From Synergistaceae bacterium (GTDB lineage Bacteria > Synergistota > Synergistia > Synergistales > Synergistaceae), in contig JAITOY010000038.1 in NCBI GenBank assembly GCA_031289775.1, forward strand, positions 1 through 64,000: a stretch of 64,000 nt of DNA, in the 5' to 3' direction. A model generated the notes under the pieces. The model searched no databases. It was not told where the DNA came from and saw only the letters and a list, made by a program, of their open reading frames with translations. Positions 3,086 to 13,939 of this stretch are shown piece by piece. How positions within the stretch are numbered: position 1 is the stretch's first letter; each line of letters starts with the position of its first letter. Position numbers and translations under genes: made by a program.

Positions 3086-3619
3086 TATCCCTAACTCCCC
3101 TGCCATATTAAATTATCGCACTCCATTATGAGGCGCAACGCCCTAAAACTTATATCATCAATTGCCATTTCTGTATACCGGAGTTAATGGGAGATAGCTC
3201 GTTTGAGAGGGAATAAAGTCTTATGGAGGGTTGCCGCGGCTCTCTAAAACACGGGCGGACTGTCGCGAGCCGGGAATTAAAGAATCCAATAGGGATTCTC
3301 AACGTGTTTTCATTCAACGAATGTCCTATTTCGGTTAAATAGTGTATTATCGAATTGAACGCAATGCTCGATAGACACTAGGGAGAGTGGATTATGTCCA
3401 AATTTTAAGACTCGCTTGCCTGTACGTAATGGATTGCTTCCTTGCCGCATACGTGGCATTTGAAGAAGAAGATATTTTGAAGAGGCGATATTCACACGTG
3501 ACCAGGAAAACGAGGACGTTTTACAATGGTATTCAGCACATAACTGATGATATACGCCTTTGCGTCATTGCCGATTCGCGACAGATGAACGGATGAAAAA
3601 TTATGGGAGGCCTTCGAAT
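3086..3619. other. Divergent intergenic region upstream of peptide-transport operon
   Basis: About 500 bases separate the kinase gene (minus) from the ABC importer (plus). Open frames here (for example 3387-3596 plus, 69 codons) have no recognisable product. A 7-bp hairpin AGAATCC/GGATTCT lies at 3281-3299, without a T tract. The region probably holds promoters for both directions and a long leader for the importer. No known riboswitch signature was seen. Confidence 0.4.
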
Positions 3620-5317
3620 TTGAAACGCATCTACAAGCTTTATGCGCTCGCTTTTTTCTTTTTCGCCATTTTTGCCCCGGCTGCGTCCGCGCTGGAGTCG
3701 TCGTTTGACATATCGCTATTCAGGGGACCAAAAATGAAGGATCTCTACTACGTGATAATTCGCGATATGGACGCGCAGCTTCTCGCGATGTCCACCGGCA
3801 AGCTCGATGTCCTGTCCGACCTGTACCGCCCGGCTGACGTCGAACGCCTCGCGAAATCCGGCGCCGCCGATCTCTCCATCGCGTCGAGCTTTCACGGATT
3901 TTTCATCACGTTTAACGTACGGAAGTTCCCCTGGGATCAGACCGCGCTCCGGCAGGCGGCCTCGCAGGTTGTTGACCGCAGGCGCTGGGTGAGGGATCTT
4001 TTCTCAGGGTACTGCGAGCCGATGACGAGCTTCCTGCCGGCCATATCGCCATACTGGGCGCCGGACGCCTCGTCGTTCCCGCATGGAGCGGAGGCCGCGA
4101 GAGAGCGCCTCGCGAACGCCGGATGGACGTGGGACATAAACGGATGGCTCGTGGCGCCTGACGGGCGTCCGCTGCCCGCGACAAAAATCCTCTGCCCCCC
4201 GTCGTCAGTGGCCGCGACTTCGACCGAGATAGCGCAGCTCATGGCGGAGGCTCTCTCCTCCATCGGGATCCCAGCCGAGGCTGAGCCGCTCGATTTCCAG
4301 ACGATGCTCGCCCGAGTCAACGTAAACGACTTCGACGCTTGCACAAACGCGTGGTCGATGTCGCGCGACCCGGACGTCCTCTACTCTTTCTACCACTCCT
4401 CGATGGACGTCGAGGGCGGATACAACACAAGCGGCATCGCGGATCCGGAACTTGACGAAACCCTGCGGGATCTGCGATACGCGCCGGACGAAGCGACGGC
4501 GCGCTCGGCAGCCTCGCGGGCGCAGCGGCTTCTGGCGAAGCTGATGCCTGTAATACCGCTTTACAGCCGCTACTCGATCTCGGCTATGCGCAACGACTGG
4601 GACGGAGTTTTTACGACGGATCGCTCGACGTCCGACAACCTGCTTACGCTCGTCTCCATGGCCCCAAAGGGCGATGGCGAAAAAAACCGCCCGATTTACT
4701 GGAACATCCCGGAGGAGATACGGACGCTGAACCCGCTCGTCTCGTCCACGGCCTATGACTGGACGGTGCTCGGCACGATATACGACACGCTGATCTCAGT
4801 GGATCCGTACACGTTCGAAGATATGTCATGGCTCGCGGAGAGCTGGGGCATAGAGACTGGCGATAAGGGGTCGATCCTGAGCTTCACTCTGCGCCCGGGC
4901 CTGAAGTGGCAGGACGGCAGGCCGCTCACCGTAGAGGACGTAGCCTACTCCCTCCAGTTCATCAAGGACAACAACGTCCCGCGTTTTTATGACAACGTGA
5001 AGGACATAGAGTCGATAGAGACGGACGCAAAAAAGCGAACCCTGCGCGTGTACATGGCGAACACGAGCTACTGGCACCTGCACAACATAGGCGGCGGCGT
5101 TCTCCTGCTGCCGAAGCACATTCTGGAGAACGTCCCGGACTGGCGAGCCTGGCAGCCGACGAACAACCCTCACGAGGCGCTTGACGGAACGATCCTGACG
5201 GAGCTGATAGGAACCGGGCCATTCACGTTCCGCGAGTCTCGCACCGGCGAGTACGTGCATATGACGCGCAACGAACACTATATTTTATATGATAAGTCCT
5301 CAGAGGCGGAGCGATGA
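3620..5317 (+). CDS. Peptide ABC transporter substrate-binding protein, halves in permuted order
   Basis: A 565-residue extracytoplasmic binding protein of the SBP_bac_5 (DppA/OppA) family. TTG 3620 is chosen because GGGAGG lies 9 bases upstream and the product then begins with a signal peptide (MKRIYKLYALAFFFFAIF, cleavage near ASA). The family's usual order is reversed. Residues about 37-345 match the C-terminal half: LLAMSTGKLDV, FNVRKFPWDQTALRQAAS, an ERLANAGW helix and the FDAC-SRDPDVLY region. Residues about 357-565 match the N-terminal half: LNPLV, YDTLISVDP, LAESW, LRPGLKWQDGRPLTVEDV, GTGPF and RNEHY. Total length equals one complete domain, so this looks like a circular permutation rather than a fragment. 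It overlaps the permease start by 4 bases and heads the importer operon. Confidence 0.85.
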   Translation: MKRIYKLYALAFFFFAIFAPAASALESSFDISLFRGPKMKDLYYVIIRDMDAQLLAMSTGKLDVLSDLYRPADVERLAKSGAADLSIASSFHGFFITFNVRKFPWDQTALRQAASQVVDRRRWVRDLFSGYCEPMTSFLPAISPYWAPDASSFPHGAEAARERLANAGWTWDINGWLVAPDGRPLPATKILCPPSSVAATSTEIAQLMAEALSSIGIPAEAEPLDFQTMLARVNVNDFDACTNAWSMSRDPDVLYSFYHSSMDVEGGYNTSGIADPELDETLRDLRYAPDEATARSAASRAQRLLAKLMPVIPLYSRYSISAMRNDWDGVFTTDRSTSDNLLTLVSMAPKGDGEKNRPIYWNIPEEIRTLNPLVSSTAYDWTVLGTIYDTLISVDPYTFEDMSWLAESWGIETGDKGSILSFTLRPGLKWQDGRPLTVEDVAYSLQFIKDNNVPRFYDNVKDIESIETDAKKRTLRVYMANTSYWHLHNIGGGVLLLPKHILENVPDWRAWQPTNNPHEALDGTILTELIGTGPFTFRESRTGEYVHMTRNEHYILYDKSSEAER

Positions 5318-6282
5318 TCGCCCTTTTAAAGCGCGTAGGCGCCTCCGTTTTGGTGCTGGGCGTTGTCCTCGTGCTGAACTTCTTCCTGTTTCGAATAATG
5401 CCCGGCGACCCACTGACCAGCATAGTGGATCCAAGGTTCTCCCCGGAGGCAAAAGCACAGCTCGCGGCTCAGTGGGGGCTTGACAGGCCGATGTCCGAGC
5501 AGTTCGCCGTCTACATCCGCGAGATGCTCTCGTTCCGCTTCGGCCTGTCCATGATGACAGGCGCGCCGGTCTGGGACGAGCTAAAAACCCGCGTGCCGAA
5601 CACGGTCGCGCTCCTTCTGCCGGCGCTGATTCTTTCGACCGCCCTTGGACTCTCTCTTGGGGTGAAGGCGGCCCTCGCGCGAGGGTCGATCGTCGAGCGA
5701 GTGGTGCTTCTGAGCGGCGCGGTCTCCTTCTCCTTCCCTTCGTTTTTCGTGCAGCTCATTTTGCTTTTGTGCTTCGGCTACGTATGGCAGGTTTTCCCGC
5801 TACGAGGCACAACGTCGATCCCGCCGCCGGAGGGGCCGCTCGCCATCCTCGACTACGTCTGGCACATAGCCATGCCGCTTTTTTCTCTCGTGATTATGGG
5901 CTTTGGAGGCCTCGCCCTCTACATCCGCAACCTGATGGTGAAGTCGCTCGGCGAGGACTACGTCCTGATGGCCCGGGCGCGAGGACTTCCGCACGGCCGA
6001 GTCGTCTGGAACCACGCATTTCGCTCCATACTGCCGCCGGTGCTGACGATCTTCCTTCTCTCGCTGCCGGGCGTTGTGAGCGGCGCGGTGATAACTGAGA
6101 CGGTCTTTTCGCTGAACGGCGCGGGGCGCTTCCTGCTGGAGGCGACAAACTCGCACGACTACCCCGCCGCCGGCGCGGCGTTTTTCCTGCTGGCGCTGCT
6201 GACTGTAGTCTGTAACCTACTGGCCGACCTCTGCTACGTCATCGTCGACCCCCGCGTCAGGCGCGAGGGCTCAAGGGGTTGA
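5314..6282 (+). CDS. Dipeptide/oligopeptide ABC transporter permease, DppB type
   Basis: A 322-residue inner-membrane permease with six predicted membrane segments. The N terminus has the DppB-type first helix followed by FRIMPGDPL and the conserved LGLDRP-like segment (QWGLDRPMSEQF). The cytoplasmic EAA loop is seen in MARARGLPHGRVVWNHAFRS, which docks on the ATPase subunits. The ATG overlaps the stop of the binding-protein gene (ATGA), so the two are translationally coupled. It pairs with the next gene to form the transmembrane channel of the importer. Confidence 0.93.
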   Translation: MIALLKRVGASVLVLGVVLVLNFFLFRIMPGDPLTSIVDPRFSPEAKAQLAAQWGLDRPMSEQFAVYIREMLSFRFGLSMMTGAPVWDELKTRVPNTVALLLPALILSTALGLSLGVKAALARGSIVERVVLLSGAVSFSFPSFFVQLILLLCFGYVWQVFPLRGTTSIPPPEGPLAILDYVWHIAMPLFSLVIMGFGGLALYIRNLMVKSLGEDYVLMARARGLPHGRVVWNHAFRSILPPVLTIFLLSLPGVVSGAVITETVFSLNGAGRFLLEATNSHDYPAAGAAFFLLALLTVVCNLLADLCYVIVDPRVRREGSRG

Positions 6283-6292
6283 GGCTGTCACG

Positions 6293-7471
6293 ATGAGACG
6301 AAATCTGAGCGCTATCTTGCTTCTAGTTCTCCTGCTACTCGCGCTGCTCGGCCCTGGGGCCTTCGGACTGAATGACGGGGCGCAGGCGCCGCCGTTTTCG
6401 AAGCCGTCGTGGCTCGACGGCGCCATCGCGTCGACGATAGTCCTGGATGCCATGGCTAATGGGAACAGTAACTCGGCCACGGCGCCGCTTGCGTGGGAAC
6501 ACTCCGCTCCGATTAGGGTTTCCGTGAGCGGGCGCCTCGAAAGCGGCGAGATCCGATGGGCGACGCCGAGCGGCGATTTCATGTTGGCGAACACGCCGGG
6601 AGAGGTCGACCTCGACGCGCGCGACATCCCGTTCAAAAGGTCGCTGGGGATCAGCCCGTTCGACAGCGCGCCCAACATATTGTTCCCGACGCGCGGCGAG
6701 TACGCGCTTTCGCTCACCGGTACCGGCGAGGTTACGATGAGGATCGAGGGCGGTCGGTGGGGACTGCTGGGAACCGACCACCGGGGACGTGACATTGCCG
6801 CGCTTTTCGTGCGCGGCATCAGGGTCTCGCTGATCGTAGGGATCGCGGCCACATTCATAGCCACGCTGCTCGGACTCTCATTCGGCCTTCTCTCCGGCTA
6901 CGCCGGCGGGCTGACCGACGCGCTAATAATGCGCGCTGTTGACGTGCTGCTCTCCATACCTACTCTGCCGATTTTGATGGTCGTCACTGGAATCTGGGGC
7001 AAAGGACTCTGGAACCTCGTCGTGATACTGTCCGTATTCTCGTGGATGGGAACCGCGAGGACAGTGCGAGCCATGACGCTCTCGCTCCGCGACGCGCCGT
7101 GGGTCGAGGGGCTGCGCGCCCTTGGCGCAAGACGAAACTACATACTGTTCAGACACCTCGTGCCGGAGGCGCTGCCGCTTTTGCTCGCTAACGTGGCGCT
7201 CGGAGTGCCGGGCGCTATACTCTCAGAGGCGGGTCTTGCTTTCCTCGGCCTCTCCGACCCGCGCGTACCGTCGTGGGGGAGAATGCTGCACGAGGCGCAC
7301 ACGTTCGGCGCGTTCACGAACGGCGCGTGGTGGATGATCCTCCCCCCTGGCCTCGGCATCTGCCTGATATGCCTCATATTCATGGACATAGGCCGCAAAC
7401 TGGAGGAGCGGGCAGACCCGCGTCTTGCCCAGGCGGCAAGGAGCGGGGCCCTGAAGGAGGCCGAGGTATGA
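6293..7471 (+). CDS. Dipeptide/oligopeptide ABC transporter permease, DppC type, with large external insert
   Basis: The second permease, 392 residues, longer than the usual 280-300. TM1 (residues 6-24) is followed by about 130 mostly polar residues before the conserved LLGTDHRGRDIAALF segment. This places an extra domain outside the membrane, near where the binding protein docks. The rest is normal, with an EAA loop around LRALGARRNYILFRH and a final helix before the acidic tail. The extra domain could adapt the channel to the unusual binding protein encoded upstream, which is inference. GAGG 8 bases upstream supports the ATG. Confidence 0.92.
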   Translation: MRRNLSAILLLVLLLLALLGPGAFGLNDGAQAPPFSKPSWLDGAIASTIVLDAMANGNSNSATAPLAWEHSAPIRVSVSGRLESGEIRWATPSGDFMLANTPGEVDLDARDIPFKRSLGISPFDSAPNILFPTRGEYALSLTGTGEVTMRIEGGRWGLLGTDHRGRDIAALFVRGIRVSLIVGIAATFIATLLGLSFGLLSGYAGGLTDALIMRAVDVLLSIPTLPILMVVTGIWGKGLWNLVVILSVFSWMGTARTVRAMTLSLRDAPWVEGLRALGARRNYILFRHLVPEALPLLLANVALGVPGAILSEAGLAFLGLSDPRVPSWGRMLHEAHTFGAFTNGAWWMILPPGLGICLICLIFMDIGRKLEERADPRLAQAARSGALKEAEV

Positions 7472-8313
7472 GCGTGATGAGAGACGCTGTAGCGATCGAG
7501 CTCAAAAACCTCTCCGTGACATACAGGGGCGGCGAGGGCGGCCGAACTGTTCACGCCGTCCGGGACTGCTCGTTCTCCGTCGCGAGGGGCGACGTCCTCG
7601 GCATCGTCGGCGAGTCGGGCAGCGGAAAATCGAGCGTCTTGATGGCAATTCCCCGCCTCCTGCCGGCGAGCGCCCTTGTCACCGGAGGTATATTCTGTGA
7701 CGGAACGGAGATATCCTCGCTTGACGAACGGGGCATGGGCGTCTGGCGCTGGCGGCGAATAGCCCTCGTCCCGCAGAGCGCGATGAACTCATTCACGCCG
7801 CACATCACGATCGAACGCCACATCACCGAGGTTCTCGAACACCACATGAGAACCCCGAGGCGGGATGCTCGCGAGCGCGCCGAGGAGCTTCTCTGGACTG
7901 TCAGACTGGACGGTAGCGCGGGCGCGCGCTACCCGCACGAACTGTCCGGCGGCCAGAAACAGCGCGCGGCCTTGGCGACCGCGCTCGCCTGCGGCCCAGA
8001 CTTCCTTCTGGCCGACGAGCCGACGACCGCCCTCGACGTCATCACCCAAAAAGAAGTCCTCGATATGACGGTGTCGCTCGTGCGTGAGCGCGGCATGGGG
8101 CTCCTGCTCGTGACGCACGACCTGCCCTTGGCTGCCGGCATCTGCGACTCCCTCGTCGTCATGCGGGAGGGCGCCATAGTGGAAAGCGGCCCATCTCAAC
8201 AGGTCGCGTCCAACCCTGAGAACGACTACACAAAGCTCCTGATAGGCGCGATAAGAGACATGGAGAGGCCGCGAGGACTCGAAGAGACGCCGGCGCGCAA
8301 GACGCGGGGTTGA
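7468..8313 (+). CDS. Peptide ABC transporter ATP-binding protein, DppD type
   Basis: A 281-residue cytoplasmic ATPase. Walker A is GESGSGKSS at residues 48-56, the signature is LSGGQKQR, Walker B is FLLADEPT with the D-loop ALDV, and the switch His lies in VTHD. ATG 7468 is chosen for AGGAGG 7 bases upstream and its overlap with the previous stop. A longer in-frame extension upstream lies inside the permease gene and is not used. The C-terminal NPENDYTKLLIGAI is typical of the DppD/OppD oligopeptide extension. It is expected to pair with the next gene as a heterodimeric motor. Confidence 0.94.
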   Translation: MSVMRDAVAIELKNLSVTYRGGEGGRTVHAVRDCSFSVARGDVLGIVGESGSGKSSVLMAIPRLLPASALVTGGIFCDGTEISSLDERGMGVWRWRRIALVPQSAMNSFTPHITIERHITEVLEHHMRTPRRDARERAEELLWTVRLDGSAGARYPHELSGGQKQRAALATALACGPDFLLADEPTTALDVITQKEVLDMTVSLVRERGMGLLLVTHDLPLAAGICDSLVVMREGAIVESGPSQQVASNPENDYTKLLIGAIRDMERPRGLEETPARKTRG

Positions 8314-9134
8314 TTGATATGACGGAGAAAACGGAAAAACAAGACATGATAGACGCAAAATATCTGGACGTAAAAAACCTGAGCGTCCACTTCAAGGGAC
8401 GTTTCCGCATATTCAGGGGACATGGCGAGGGGGTATGGGCGCTAAAATCCGTCTCGTTTTCCGTCGGGAGGGGCGAGACCCTCTCGGTCGTAGGCGAGTC
8501 GGGCAGCGGCAAAACGACGCTTTTGCGCTCGCTCTTGGGTCTTGTCACATCGACGGACGGGAACGTTGAGCTCTGGGGTCGGGCCATCGGGACGATGAGC
8601 GCCGACGAACTACTTGCGGCGAGGCGCCGGTGCGGCTATATCATTCAGGATCCGTACAGCTCGCTTCCGCCGACCCTCACGGTTCTGGGCGCGGTTCTCG
8701 AGCCGTGGAACGTCGTACACGGCAGGGGGGGGCACGGCGTTGCGAAGGCAAAAGCACTGCTCTCGGAGCTCAAACTGCCGGAGGAGCTGTGGGGCGCCCG
8801 CGTCCGCTACTCGCTCTCCGGCGGCCAGCGCCAGAGGGTCGCCGTCGCGCGCGCCCTGATACTGGCGCCCGAGCTCCTGCTCTGCGACGAGCCCACAGCG
8901 ATGCAGGACGTCTCTACGAGGGGCGAGGTGCTGGATGTGTTGAACCGCCGAGTCCGCTCCGGCATGTCCATGGTTCTAGTGACGCACGACCTTCTCCTGG
9001 CGCGCCACGCCGCGTCCCGCGCCATCGTCCTCTACAAGGGAGAGATAGTCGAGTCCGGCGACACATCCGAACTGTTGGAGCGCCCGACGCACAGCTACAC
9101 ACGCGCGCTCCTCGCCGCTCTTCCGAAGCTGTGA
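8310..9134 (+). CDS. Peptide ABC transporter ATP-binding protein, DppF type
   Basis: The second ATPase, 274 residues. Walker A is GESGSGKTT, the Q-loop is IIQDPYSSLPP, the signature is LSGGQRQR and Walker B is LLLCDEPT. The D-loop reads AMQDVS where ALDVS is usual, a mild departure next to the dimer interface. The C-terminal HSYTRALLAALP motif is that of DppF/OppF. The start may be TTG 8310, overlapping the previous stop, or ATG 8319; both are in frame. It completes a five-gene importer (binding protein, two permeases, two ATPases). No terminator was seen before the convergent PLP-enzyme gene. Confidence 0.93.
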   Translation: MIDMTEKTEKQDMIDAKYLDVKNLSVHFKGRFRIFRGHGEGVWALKSVSFSVGRGETLSVVGESGSGKTTLLRSLLGLVTSTDGNVELWGRAIGTMSADELLAARRRCGYIIQDPYSSLPPTLTVLGAVLEPWNVVHGRGGHGVAKAKALLSELKLPEELWGARVRYSLSGGQRQRVAVARALILAPELLLCDEPTAMQDVSTRGEVLDVLNRRVRSGMSMVLVTHDLLLARHAASRAIVLYKGEIVESGDTSELLERPTHSYTRALLAALPKL

Positions 9135-9173: not shown

Positions 9174-10388
9174 TTATTCGGCTTTGCGAAGCGCTTGGCG
9201 GATGTCCATTATTATATCCTCAGTGTCCTCCAATCCAATGCTGAGGCGGAAAAATCCATCGTGAAATTCGTCCGGGTACAGGCACTGCCGCTCGTCGTTT
9301 TCGCCGAGGAAAACTATCAGGCTCTCGTCATGCCCGAGAGAGACCGCAGAGGTTATGACGTTCAAATGGCTGACGAAGCGATTGTGCGCCTCGTGATCCC
9401 CGCGCAGGCCAAACGCCATAACCCCTCCGAAGCCCTTCGTCATCTGGCTTTTCGCGAGGTCATGCTTCGCGTGGCTTTCCAGCCCCGGGTAGCTCACGAA
9501 GCGCACACAGTCCTCCGCCTCCAGGAACTCCGCGATGAACTGCGCGCTCCTGTTGTGCTGCTCCACGCGAAGCGGGAGCGTGACGGCGCCGCGCATGATG
9601 AGCCACGCGTTAAAAGGGCTTATGGCGCCACCGAGGTTCACCATCGCCTCGGCCCTAATTATGTCGATCAGCTCTTTGCGGCCGATCACAGCGCCGCCCA
9701 TCGCGTCTCCATGCCCATTTATGTATTTCGTGAGGCTCTCGACGCAGAGATCCGCCCCGAGGGCAAGCGGGCGCTGATTGTACGGCGACGCGAACGTGTT
9801 GTCTACGGAGAGAAGCGCGCCGGCCTCGTGCGCTATAGCCGCTATAGCCGCGATGTCGCTGATCTTGATGGTAGGGTTCGACGGCGTCTCTATGTGTATG
9901 AGCTTCGTCTCCGGCGTCACGGCAGAGCGCACGGCATCGACGTCCGAGCTGTCCACAAGCGTGGAGCGCACGCCGTATTTTCGCGGCAGCAGCTCGTTCA
10001 AAAGCCGATAAGCCGCGATGTAAGTGCTGTCGGAGACCACGATGTGGTTACCGCTTTCAAGGAGCGCGAAAAAGACGCCGGAGAGCGCAGCTACGCCAGA
10101 GGCAAGAACGACGCAGTCCTCCCCCTCCTCCAAAGACGCGAGCTTCTCCTGAAGATACCCCTGGTTCGCCCCGCCGTTGCGCGTGTAGATGTTCCCGCTC
10201 GCGCTGCTCCAGTTTAGGTCGGACGGGTCGTAGGGCAAAGCGTAGCTGTTCGCCATGGTGATAGGCCGACGAATCGCCCCAGTTTCAGTGTCTATCCCAT
10301 TTCCGACGTGCACGGATCGAGTGAGGAAACCAAGCTTCCCTCCCGATTCCTCGCCATTTTCAATTTTTTTACCCTCAATGTAATTCAT
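9174..10388 (-). CDS. Cys/Met metabolism PLP-dependent enzyme (trans-sulfuration family)
   Basis: A 404-residue PLP enzyme of the cystathionine gamma-synthase/gamma-lyase/methionine gamma-lyase family. Visible family features are Y-T-R-N near residue 66 (phosphate-contact YxR), ASGVAALSGVFFALL, ETPSNPTI, SVDNTFASP and the PLP lysine in SLTKYINGH (about residue 219). These cytoplasmic enzymes make or split C-S bonds. The exact activity (synthase, beta/gamma-lyase or sulfhydrylase) cannot be assigned from motifs alone. In an amino-acid-fermenting cell next to a peptide importer, a lyase role is plausible. It lies 57 bases behind recD2 on the same strand, with a separate candidate -10 in between. 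Confidence 0.9.
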   Translation of the reverse strand: MNYIEGKKIENGEESGGKLGFLTRSVHVGNGIDTETGAIRRPITMANSYALPYDPSDLNWSSASGNIYTRNGGANQGYLQEKLASLEEGEDCVVLASGVAALSGVFFALLESGNHIVVSDSTYIAAYRLLNELLPRKYGVRSTLVDSSDVDAVRSAVTPETKLIHIETPSNPTIKISDIAAIAAIAHEAGALLSVDNTFASPYNQRPLALGADLCVESLTKYINGHGDAMGGAVIGRKELIDIIRAEAMVNLGGAISPFNAWLIMRGAVTLPLRVEQHNRSAQFIAEFLEAEDCVRFVSYPGLESHAKHDLAKSQMTKGFGGVMAFGLRGDHEAHNRFVSHLNVITSAVSLGHDESLIVFLGENDERQCLYPDEFHDGFFRLSIGLEDTEDIIMDIRQALRKAE

Positions 10389-10421
10389 TCGACCACCCCA
10401 AAGCAGTTAGTATCACAAAAT

Positions 10422-10427
10422 ATTATA
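10422..10427 (-). promoter_or_regulatory. Candidate -10 element for the PLP-enzyme gene
   Basis: Read on the minus strand this is TATAAT, in the short gap between recD2 and the PLP-enzyme gene. GGGGTGG then precedes the start codon. The -35 is weak, so it may only be an auxiliary promoter. Confidence 0.3.
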
Positions 10428-10445
10428 ACCTATTATTTATGTATG

Positions 10446-12719
10446 TTATAGAATCGCCTGTCTCAGGCGTTCTCCGAGGTATGTGTATCTGTGTCTTGTT
10501 TTGTCGTTTTTTACTGCTATCGCGGCGGCCTTTTTTGTCCCCACGAGGACTACGAGTTTTTTCCCCCTCGTTATTCCGGTGTAGAGAAGGTTTCTTTGCA
10601 GCAGGACGTAGTGCTGGGTGTGGATCGGCATCACTATGGCGGGGTACTCCGAGCCCTGCGACTTATGGATGGATACGGCGTAGGCGTGGATCAACGCGTC
10701 GAAGCCGTTCGCCTCGTATACGATCTCGCGGCCGTACATGTCTACGGAGAGCAGACCGGCTTCGTCGTCCGCCCGGATCACAAAACCTATGTCCCCGTTG
10801 TACACGTCGCGCTCATAGTCGTTGCGTATCTGCATAACCTTATCGCCCACCTTGAACCTCCTGCCGCCCCGCTCTATCGAGGGCCTGTCGTCGGGGTTGA
10901 GCGCGCGCTGCAGCGCGCCGTTAAGGTTCGACGCGCCGAGCGAGCCCCTGTGCATCGGGGTCAGCACCTGCACGTCCGATATTGGGTTGAGGCCGAACCT
11001 CGCCGGAATCCTGTCCCTTACCAGAGTCAGTATTATCTGGACGCACTTTTCGGGGTCGTCCTGCGTGACAAAATAAAAGTCCCTCAAACCATCGCCGTCA
11101 TGGGTTTGTCCCGCCGGCTCGCCGAACTCGTCCGGCGCGCCAGGTTCGCCCGTCCCGTCTGACAGCTCCTCCGGCAGAAGACCGCTGTTCACCCTGTGGG
11201 CGTTCACTATTATGCCGCTCTCCTTTGCTTGACGGAATATCTCGTTCAACTCGACGACCGGCGCCGCGCCGGACGAAATGAGATCCTTCAGCACGTTTCC
11301 CGGGCCGACGGATGGGAGCTGGTGAATGTCGCCCACAAGTATGAGCTTCGTCTCGTCTGGGATGGCCCGGAGGAGGTGGAAAAACAGAACCGAGTCGATC
11401 ATCGACGCCTCGTCAACGACAAGAAGGCCGCACTCCAGCGGCGAGTCCGCGTTTCTCGCGAATCCGCCCATCTTTCCATTGTACTCTAGCAATCTGTGGA
11501 TTGTGCGAGCCTCGTGCCCCGTCGCCTCGCTCATGCGCTTCGCGGCGCGCCCTGTCGGCGCGGCCAGCTCTATTTCGAGATTGCGCGCGCCCAGGATACC
11601 GATTATCGCCTTGATCAGCGTAGTTTTTCCCGTTCCGGGACCGCCGGTTATTATCATCACCTTCGACGTCAGGGCGAGCTTCAGCGCGCCCTCCTGTTTT
11701 TCGGCGAGTTTTATCCTCATGACGTTCTGCACCCATGCTACAGCCCGCTCTATGTCGATGCCGTTCGCCATGTCGTCCAGATCTGTCAGCGTGTCGCGGC
11801 GGAGGAGCGTGGCGAGCTTTTTGGCGCTTTTCCGCTCCGCAACGTAATATGTGGGCAGGTAGACGGCCTCCAGCGTCTCCCCGCCATCTGGGGTAATCAT
11901 GTCTATCACCAGCGCGGAGTCGGACACGGCTCTCGCTATCGCCTCGTCCGCAAGGCCCTCGGCGACGCCCAGCAACAGAGCGGCCCGTTTCGCCAGCACG
12001 TCCCTCGGCGCGTAGACGTGCCCCTCCCCCGTGAACTCCGACAGGGCGTACTGCACCCCTGCGTCGAGCCTCGTGGACGATTCCGGCGGGAGGCCCATGT
12101 TAGCGGCCACCTTGTCGGCAGTAAGGAAACCTATTCCGAAAATATCGTCGGCCAGCCGGTATGGGTTCTCCTTCACGATCTGTATCGTATTCTGACCGTA
12201 CTCTGCGAAAATTTTCGCGGCAAAGTTCGGGCTCACCCCGTTGGATTGAAGGAAGAGCATGACGGAGCGAACCTCCTTCTGCGACTCCCACGACTGTTTG
12301 ATGGATTCCAGAAGTTTCGCGCTGACGCCTTTTATCTCGAGCAGGTCGTCCGGGCTTTCGTCCAAGACGTCGAGGGCGCGCTCTCCAAAGGTTTTGACTA
12401 TCCTCTCTGCCATACGCGGCCCCACGCCCTTGACGAGGCCGGAGCCGAGATACCGCTTTATACCCTCGACGGTGGACGGCAGGAGCGACCTGCACCTCGT
12501 GAACTGGAACTGACGCCCGAACTTCGGGTGATTGGCCCAGTCCCCCAAGAGCTCGAGTTCCTCCCCCGGCATGTGGTTGTCGCATAGACCGACAGCGGTC
12601 ACGAGGTCGGCGACTCCAGCGTCGATTTTATACACGGAGTAGCCGTTCTCCTCGTTTCTATAGGTGACGCGTTCGAGCTGTCCTCGAAGCGTCTTTTCCC
12701 CGGGCCGGGGTTCGTACAT
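10446..12719 (-). CDS. recD2: RecD2-type ATP-dependent DNA helicase
   Basis: A superfamily 1B 5'-3' DNA helicase of about 757 residues, of the RecD2 (YrrC/TraA) type that works without RecBC. In order it has an N-terminal OB-like region (LRGQLERVTY...GYSVYKI), helix-hairpin-helix segments (LVKGVGPRMAERIV, EIKGVSAKLLE), Walker A ITGGPGTGKTT near residue 355, Walker B LLVVDEASMID, RAAKRMSE, and the C-terminal UvrD-like motif AYAVSIHKSQGSEYP with YTGITRGKK. The start MYEPRPGEK follows the phosphofructokinase stop by two bases. An in-frame extension overlapping that gene is open but not needed. It probably shares a transcript with the kinase upstream. Confidence 0.93.
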   Translation of the reverse strand: MYEPRPGEKTLRGQLERVTYRNEENGYSVYKIDAGVADLVTAVGLCDNHMPGEELELLGDWANHPKFGRQFQFTRCRSLLPSTVEGIKRYLGSGLVKGVGPRMAERIVKTFGERALDVLDESPDDLLEIKGVSAKLLESIKQSWESQKEVRSVMLFLQSNGVSPNFAAKIFAEYGQNTIQIVKENPYRLADDIFGIGFLTADKVAANMGLPPESSTRLDAGVQYALSEFTGEGHVYAPRDVLAKRAALLLGVAEGLADEAIARAVSDSALVIDMITPDGGETLEAVYLPTYYVAERKSAKKLATLLRRDTLTDLDDMANGIDIERAVAWVQNVMRIKLAEKQEGALKLALTSKVMIITGGPGTGKTTLIKAIIGILGARNLEIELAAPTGRAAKRMSEATGHEARTIHRLLEYNGKMGGFARNADSPLECGLLVVDEASMIDSVLFFHLLRAIPDETKLILVGDIHQLPSVGPGNVLKDLISSGAAPVVELNEIFRQAKESGIIVNAHRVNSGLLPEELSDGTGEPGAPDEFGEPAGQTHDGDGLRDFYFVTQDDPEKCVQIILTLVRDRIPARFGLNPISDVQVLTPMHRGSLGASNLNGALQRALNPDDRPSIERGGRRFKVGDKVMQIRNDYERDVYNGDIGFVIRADDEAGLLSVDMYGREIVYEANGFDALIHAYAVSIHKSQGSEYPAIVMPIHTQHYVLLQRNLLYTGITRGKKLVVLVGTKKAAAIAVKNDKTRHRYTYLGERLRQAIL

Positions 12720-12721
12720 CC

Positions 12722-13939
12722 CTACAGGAAGCGCTCCACTGCCGTTCCCTCGTTGGCGAAACAAACAGGCTCGAACGAGACAGACTGGCGGCCGAAACAG
12801 ATGTCCATCTGCTCGTAGAACGACACCATCTTGATACTGACTGGGCGCGGGGTGATCGCGAAGCTTGTCGGCATGTAGCGTATCTCTCCGTCGAACACCT
12901 GATAGACAGTCACGCCTGAGACGCCCTTCATCAACAACATGACAGCCGCCGCCCCCACTTCCTTGCCAAAGTTGACGTCGTAGGCGCCGGTCGAGCCGGA
13001 ACGCACAAGGTGGCCCGGGGTCACCTCGCGTATCTCAGGGTACTCGAGCACACCCTCGACGTACATGCCACAGGCCTTCATAAACTCCTTTATCTCTCCG
13101 TCGGACTTCATTCGAAGCTCAAGGGCGTGACGGACGTGCTTCGCCGCTCCGCCGAGCTTCGTGTGGCCGAACGCGTCCTTCGAACCATCCTCCGTGAAGA
13201 GGTCGCCGCCCTCGCTCTTGATGCCCTCCGCCACGACTATGCTGTAAGTGCCGGATTTCACGTCGCTGCGAAGTATGCGCCTCATATAGTAGCGCTTCAT
13301 GTGGTTGTAGACCTCGTCGAAGTCGACCGGTATCTCCGGTATGAGTATGCAGTCAGCGTCGGCGGCTATGCCCCCGCGAAACGCGGTGTGCCCAGTGTAG
13401 CGCCCAAAGACCTCCACGATCATGATCCGATTGTGTGTGCGACCCGTCGTTTTTATCTCCTCGACTATGTGGGCGATCTTGTTGATGGCGGAGTCGCCGC
13501 CGACCGAGTAGGTCTGGAGGTCGAGATCCATCGTCTTCGGAGCGTGGACGCACGGGATGCCGTTGTCGGCCAAGTCGACCAGAACGCTGCCTGTGTCGTC
13601 GCCACCGGATATCACGAGCCCGCCTATGTCGAATTTCTTCAGGCCGACTAAGATGCGCTTATACTTGTCCGGATTTTCGATCTTCGATATCTTCACGCGG
13701 GAGTGCCCGGCCTCGGAGCCGGCGAACGTCGAGTTGACGTGGTCGACCCGCTCCTCGTCGAGCCTTGTGAGCCTTTCCATATCTACGAGGTTATAAAGCC
13801 CGGCGTAGCCGTTCGGAATGATGTACGCCCCCATCCCGTTCGCCAGCGCTATTTTAGCGGCGCCGCGCACGACGGCGTTCAGCCCCCCGCAGTCTCCCCC
13901 GGCCGTAATAATGCCTATATTCTTAATTGGTACGCTCAT
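12722..13939 (-). CDS. pfp: 6-phosphofructokinase, residues point to PPi dependence
   Basis: A 405-residue phosphofructokinase. The nucleotide/PPi loop is GGDCGGLN (residues 14-21). Two positions that separate phosphoryl donors are informative. The GGDG of ATP enzymes reads GGDD at 112-115, and the Gly of the TID motif is Lys (PKTMDLD, 134-140). Asp and Lys at these positions are the classical marks of pyrophosphate-dependent enzymes. The motif itself is unusual (MDLD for IDND). A PPi enzyme would run fructose-6-phosphate phosphorylation reversibly in the cytoplasm and suits gluconeogenic, amino-acid-fermenting cells. The start has GGAG upstream, and a candidate extended -10 lies at 13993-13998. 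Confidence 0.88.
   Translation of the reverse strand: MSVPIKNIGIITAGGDCGGLNAVVRGAAKIALANGMGAYIIPNGYAGLYNLVDMERLTRLDEERVDHVNSTFAGSEAGHSRVKISKIENPDKYKRILVGLKKFDIGGLVISGGDDTGSVLVDLADNGIPCVHAPKTMDLDLQTYSVGGDSAINKIAHIVEEIKTTGRTHNRIMIVEVFGRYTGHTAFRGGIAADADCILIPEIPVDFDEVYNHMKRYYMRRILRSDVKSGTYSIVVAEGIKSEGGDLFTEDGSKDAFGHTKLGGAAKHVRHALELRMKSDGEIKEFMKACGMYVEGVLEYPEIREVTPGHLVRSGSTGAYDVNFGKEVGAAAVMLLMKGVSGVTVYQVFDGEIRYMPTSFAITPRPVSIKMVSFYEQMDICFGRQSVSFEPVCFANEGTAVERFL

Follow-up and report, generated by a model that had tools for sequence, protein, structure and literature searches.

A natural circular permutant of the cluster C substrate-binding proteins, probably a peptide receptor, encoded with an Opp-type importer in Synergistales

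A gene in the window (the whole 64,000-nucleotide stretch of Synergistaceae DNA analysed here) appears to encode a genuine, functional, naturally circularly permuted substrate-binding protein (SBP) of cluster C with a role in peptide import. We put the probability of this reading at about 0.87. The gene occupies positions 3620..5317 of the forward strand, and its product (565 aa from TTG 3620) is a family-5 (SBP_bac_5) protein that matches PF00496 in reversed order and has full-length permuted homologs across Synergistales. The segment order of a normal SBP is here called A-B-C. The window protein, which we name type 1, reads B-C-A, and a second permutant, type 2, reads C-A-B.

The open frame is unbroken from 3560 to 5317, with the stop codon at 5315-5317. 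Translation is likely to begin at ATG 3593 or at the in-frame TTG 3620, the latter preceded by GGGAGG at 3603-3608. A signal-peptide-like segment without a cysteine lipobox, LKRIYKLYALAFFFFAIFAPAASA, was recognized by reading the sequence at 3620..3691 and lies at the same position in relatives. Segments B and C, the native middle and C-terminal part, come first in the gene (3692..4684, forward strand) and are closed by the native C-terminal tail, LLTLVSMAPKGDGEK. Segment A, the native N-terminal part (RPIYW...LNPL...GTGPF...RNEHY), comes last (4685..5317, forward strand).

The sequence-only reading had proposed that the two halves of an SBP_bac_5 protein stand here in reversed order, and profile alignment bears this out. 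Protein residues 57-280, in segments B and C, align to PF00496 model positions 146-363; the second part, segment A, scanned as a separate piece, aligns to positions 5-141. The two stretches cover positions 5-363 of 368, in keeping with the earlier claim that the total equals one full domain. Because only positions 142-145 are absent, in the gap at the cut, the segments have been swapped without loss. The match of the whole protein is far beyond chance (E-value 1.9e-55; 188.9 bits against a cut-off of 32.4) and places it in SBP_bac_5 and cluster C, while the canonical N-to-C domain order is found neither in this protein nor in 73 type 1 frames.

Individual proteins give the same picture. In a phmmer search against PDB chains, query residues 405-575 align to residues 50-208 of AppA (1xoc_A) and query residues 61-347 to residues 216-499. 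The NCBIfam models SapA, Opp4A and NikA, as well as PDB entries 1xoc (AppA) and 8efz (CcNikZ-II), each match the window protein in two stretches, and the reversed order can be followed residue by residue in both printed PDB alignments. Rotation in silico restores a single match. Scored against a profile built from 27 proteins of normal order, the unrotated protein yields two domains (169.7 and 105.8 bits) whose model order is reversed, while the rotated protein gives one domain of 277.3 bits spanning model positions 7-464 of 480, a gain of about 108 bits for that domain; a gain was likewise seen in 72 of 72 type 1 relatives. Both parts are homologous to one parent and are swapped with neither loss nor repeat, which is the general definition of a circular permutant.

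Whether the halves could close into one fold had been raised alongside the sequence-only reading, and AlphaFold2, given an alignment of 55 type 1 sequences, predicts a confident single fold for the mature protein (pLDDT 93.1, pTM 0.89, with very low confidence at the last four residues only). For the whole model, Foldseek finds cluster C proteins at a probability of 1.00, in alignments that mostly span about 290-315 columns and have a TM of about 0.47. This partial coverage is as expected, because an alignment in sequence order takes in the B-C part alone. Half A folded alone reaches a pLDDT of 71.5, with its first 24 residues below 50, a contrast that is indicative only since a shallower alignment was used; weaker folding is expected if half A needs the other half. 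The half A model finds the same PDB family as the whole model, over 170-220 columns. These predictions are most simply read as a single fold of the usual two-lobed kind in which the chain is connected differently, its closure being judged from pTM and pLDDT.

Directly downstream lies the intact importer to which the sequence-only reading had coupled the gene. It comprises an OppB/DppB-type permease kept directly downstream of the permuted SBP (5314..6282; PF00528, PF19300), an OppC/DppC-type permease (6293..7471; PF00528), an OppD-type ATPase (7468..8313; PF00005) and an OppF-type ATPase (8310..9134; PF00005), all on the forward strand, and the SBP stop and the oppB start share ATGA at 5314-5317. 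The window SBP is thus encoded with two permeases and two ATPases. In relatives with enough flanking sequence, the permuted SBP likewise heads an SBP-B-C-D-F operon. The few exceptions come from contigs that are short or from coarse clustering of genes, and at two loci (L048, L057) about 2 kb separate B and C. No neighbour beyond the operon, such as a peptidase or another clue to the ligand, is conserved among the type 1 loci compared.

The OppC permease carries an insertion. In all 25 type 1 operons measured, its GTDxxGRD motif lies at residue 154-224, whereas four comparison permeases have it at residue 65-92 and a fifth, the outlier L104, at residue 350. The shift implies that OppC of the type 1 operons has some 80-90 extra residues, located after the first TM helix and ahead of the motif. 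This extra segment probably faces the receptor side and is possibly part of a docking surface for the permuted receptor. Both ATPases of the window stop early; their matches to the oligo_HPY C-terminal family stay under its cut-off, and most of the extension usual at this end seems to be missing.

The order first read from the window alone recurs in related genomes. At a threshold of E <= 1e-20, with nearly all matches below 1e-100, the permuted SBP is present in 108 of 188 Synergistota genomes, spread over ten Synergistales families (f1-f10) and including six single-contig genomes (G014, G029, G049, G057, G078 and G080). It is absent from some genera, and none was found in the sampled Synergistota genomes outside Synergistales. 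The 55 distinct full-length type 1 sequences are 39-82% identical to the window protein and share its end points, starting at GPKxxDLYxVI and ending at GTGPF..EYRxGEYV..RN..Y; 48 of their columns are invariant, among them the AWSxSRDPD..YSFYHSS region. A scan of public genomes with short exact peptides, able to find close relatives only, added 30 type 1 loci, all from Synergistaceae or Synergistales. No type 1 protein was found on phages or on plasmids, where the top listed matches fall below 30% identity and come as two separate pieces.

Could the order instead result from a faulty assembly or binning that put two pieces of an ordinary SBP gene together the wrong way round? The window comes from a 75-contig genome estimated to be 83% complete, but the frame is intact, a signal peptide is present, the stop overlaps the oppB start, and the same order and boundaries occur in more than 100 genomes. 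This explanation retains practically no probability and is already refuted, because independent complete genomes show the same order. A real permuted protein might alternatively have lost its role as a transport receptor and persist, for example, as a structural or signalling relic. A few broken copies exist (in two family f4 genomes, G161 with a frame break in L083 at C1:1106351-1107930, and G158 with an internal TAG in L086). Against loss of function stand the leading position of the permuted SBP in an importer operon that is otherwise complete, the invariant columns, and the genomes in which it has no apparent substitute. Twelve genomes (G001, G003, G006, G007, G012, G019, G023-G026, G028 and G045), most of them nearly complete, have only two PF00496 stretches by per-genome counts, with best E-values of 1e-32 to 1e-40. 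Two weak stretches of this kind would be expected if a genome's one family-5 SBP were the permuted protein, as is apparently the case in about 12 genomes. We regard the relic as very improbable.

In the type 1 chain, a few residues join the native C-terminal tail to the native N-terminal strand, and the new termini fall in the loop that follows the GTGPF...RNxxY hairpin. A functional receptor of this build would work as follows. The signal peptide would direct secretion, and the protein would adopt the normal two-lobed fold, with chain connectivity alone altered. Its likeliest ligands, by comparison with the Opp/Dpp class, are short peptides, which it would capture and hand to the co-encoded OppB-OppC/OppD-OppF importer. 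By this analogy, an ordinary role as a peptide receptor is the most likely one.

The second permutant is cut at a different point. In the Synergistales genome G037, a 561-aa family-5 SBP (L062, 3617-5299, reverse strand) has the order C-A-B and is accompanied by B, C, D and F genes belonging to it; no other type 2 protein was found within the sampled Synergistota. Its relatives are carried on 37 plasmid records from Halobacteria and Alphaproteobacteria, are 27-45% identical, collinear and full-length, and each matches L062 as one piece at a coverage of at least 80%. By segment profiles, 13 frames follow the C-A-B order, one gene being represented twice, and type 2 genes precede importer operons at plasmid loci L099, L103-L109 and L116-L118. 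Examples besides L062 are WP_238532955.1 (Halalkalicoccus jeotgali) and WP_207415789.1 (Roseomonas haemaphysalidis). Type 2 resembles type 1 in being a permuted family-5 SBP placed before an importer operon, with nearly equal junction spacing. It differs in its cut, which falls further along, after the AGYxW.. segment, in being only about 26-31% identical to type 1, and in its range, which takes in Alphaproteobacteria, Halobacteria and one Synergistales genome, whereas type 1 belongs to Synergistales.

Several genes next to type 2 operons encode M20 or M28 peptidases, creatininase-type amidohydrolases or oxoprolinases, which hints at peptide or amide ligands. The leader of the Halalkalicoccus member ends in a lipobox-like LAGC. 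Such a leader would put the anchor on the side of the second lobe, an assignment of lobes that follows what is established for OppA. In the type 2 operon on a Nitratireductor plasmid (L104), the permease gene at 9613-11286 is unusually long (1674 bp, with GTxxxGRD at residue 350) and is followed by a single 2304-bp ATPase gene (11283-13586), probably a fused pair.

The permuted order would have arisen by head-to-tail duplication, with the outer parts then lost. The sequence-only reading had favoured the same route, tandem duplication followed by loss of the outer halves, which is the standard model of permutation by duplication (PMC3320104). The clean junction and the existence of another trim pattern agree with this model, but a fused double SBP, the expected two-copy intermediate, was not found among the examined loci. 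Open frames of 850-1040 aa were considered as fused double SBPs and rejected; they are ordinary SBPs with an open upstream frame. At L077 (G039), two near-identical normal-order SBP genes lie head to tail (3621-5180 and 5184-6746) with 3 bases between the frames, a recent tandem duplication, so that raw material able to seed a permutant exists. Fission of the gene into halves and their re-fusion in the opposite order is also a general mechanism for permutants (PMC3320104). In no genome examined are the two halves separate intact genes, the split copies observed are contig ends or frame breaks, and precise joining with two trim patterns is more simply explained by duplication. We consider fission and re-fusion unlikely.

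Duplication leaves the question of one event or two. With all proteins rotated to A-B-C beforehand, type 1 forms one clade (100/100) and type 2 another (100/98), and the best tree places two normal-order proteins, L100 and L095, beside type 2 (97/93 and 96/78). Types 1 and 2 may both descend from one ancestral SBP fused head to tail and trimmed differently. A tree constrained to keep all permutants together is not rejected by the AU test (p = 0.131). Counted from the tail Pro to LNP, the junction spans 21 residues (mode) in type 1 and about 20 residues in type 2, the type 2 counts being partly by eye. Segment A of L062 is nearer to type 1, at 85 bits, than segment A of the sampled Synergistales normal-order proteins, at 62 or less. 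The grouping of L100 and L095 with type 2 speaks against a single fusion, segment A scores as high as in type 2 also occur in several normal-order proteins from plasmids (L114 at 99, L112 at 86), and similar spacing may merely reflect the closeness of the native termini. We hold a shared fusion tentatively, at somewhat less than even odds. The fuller version, in which one ancient family-5 fusion gave rise to at least two lasting lineages (one in Synergistales, one in Alphaproteobacteria and Halobacteria) and the second carries its signal peptide or lipid anchor on the other lobe, is a shade more doubtful still.

The window SBP shares whole-length homology, predicted fold class and OppBCDF-type partners with OppA, DppA, NikA, AppA and SapA (PF00496, cluster C) and differs from them in its B-C-A order and its new termini after the GTGPF..RNxxY hairpin. 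The known precedent for permutation comes from Treponema pallidum, whose glucose-binding protein TpMglB-2 (Tp0684) is circularly permuted and designated 'Type Ic / Cluster Bc' (PMC4990184). Like the window SBP, it is a natural permutant of the binding protein of an ABC importer, encoded with its importer and conserved in its family. Unlike the window SBP, it is a cluster B sugar receptor of type I fold with another cut point; the best fold and sequence matches of the window protein are all to cluster C, which sets it apart from Cluster Bc. The moved part of TpMglB-2 is 13% identical to EcMglB, whereas both halves of the window SBP match their family profile strongly. In the open-access literature searched, TpMglB-2 and its relatives were the one case we found of an importer receptor described as naturally permuted; a permutant of cluster C or SBP_bac_5 was not found there, a weak negative given that scope. 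No PDB chain in the permuted order of type 1 or type 2 was among the matches listed.

Relatives already in databases carry the plain label 'ABC transporter substrate-binding protein', which gives no sign of permutation and makes the finding relevant to annotation. It also bears on the choice of permutation sites in biosensors built from such binding proteins. Natural permutants of this kind let the role of chain order in folding, export and docking be tested, and they offer a natural test case for permutation by duplication. Most of the order Synergistales carries a permuted receptor of a large peptide-binding class.
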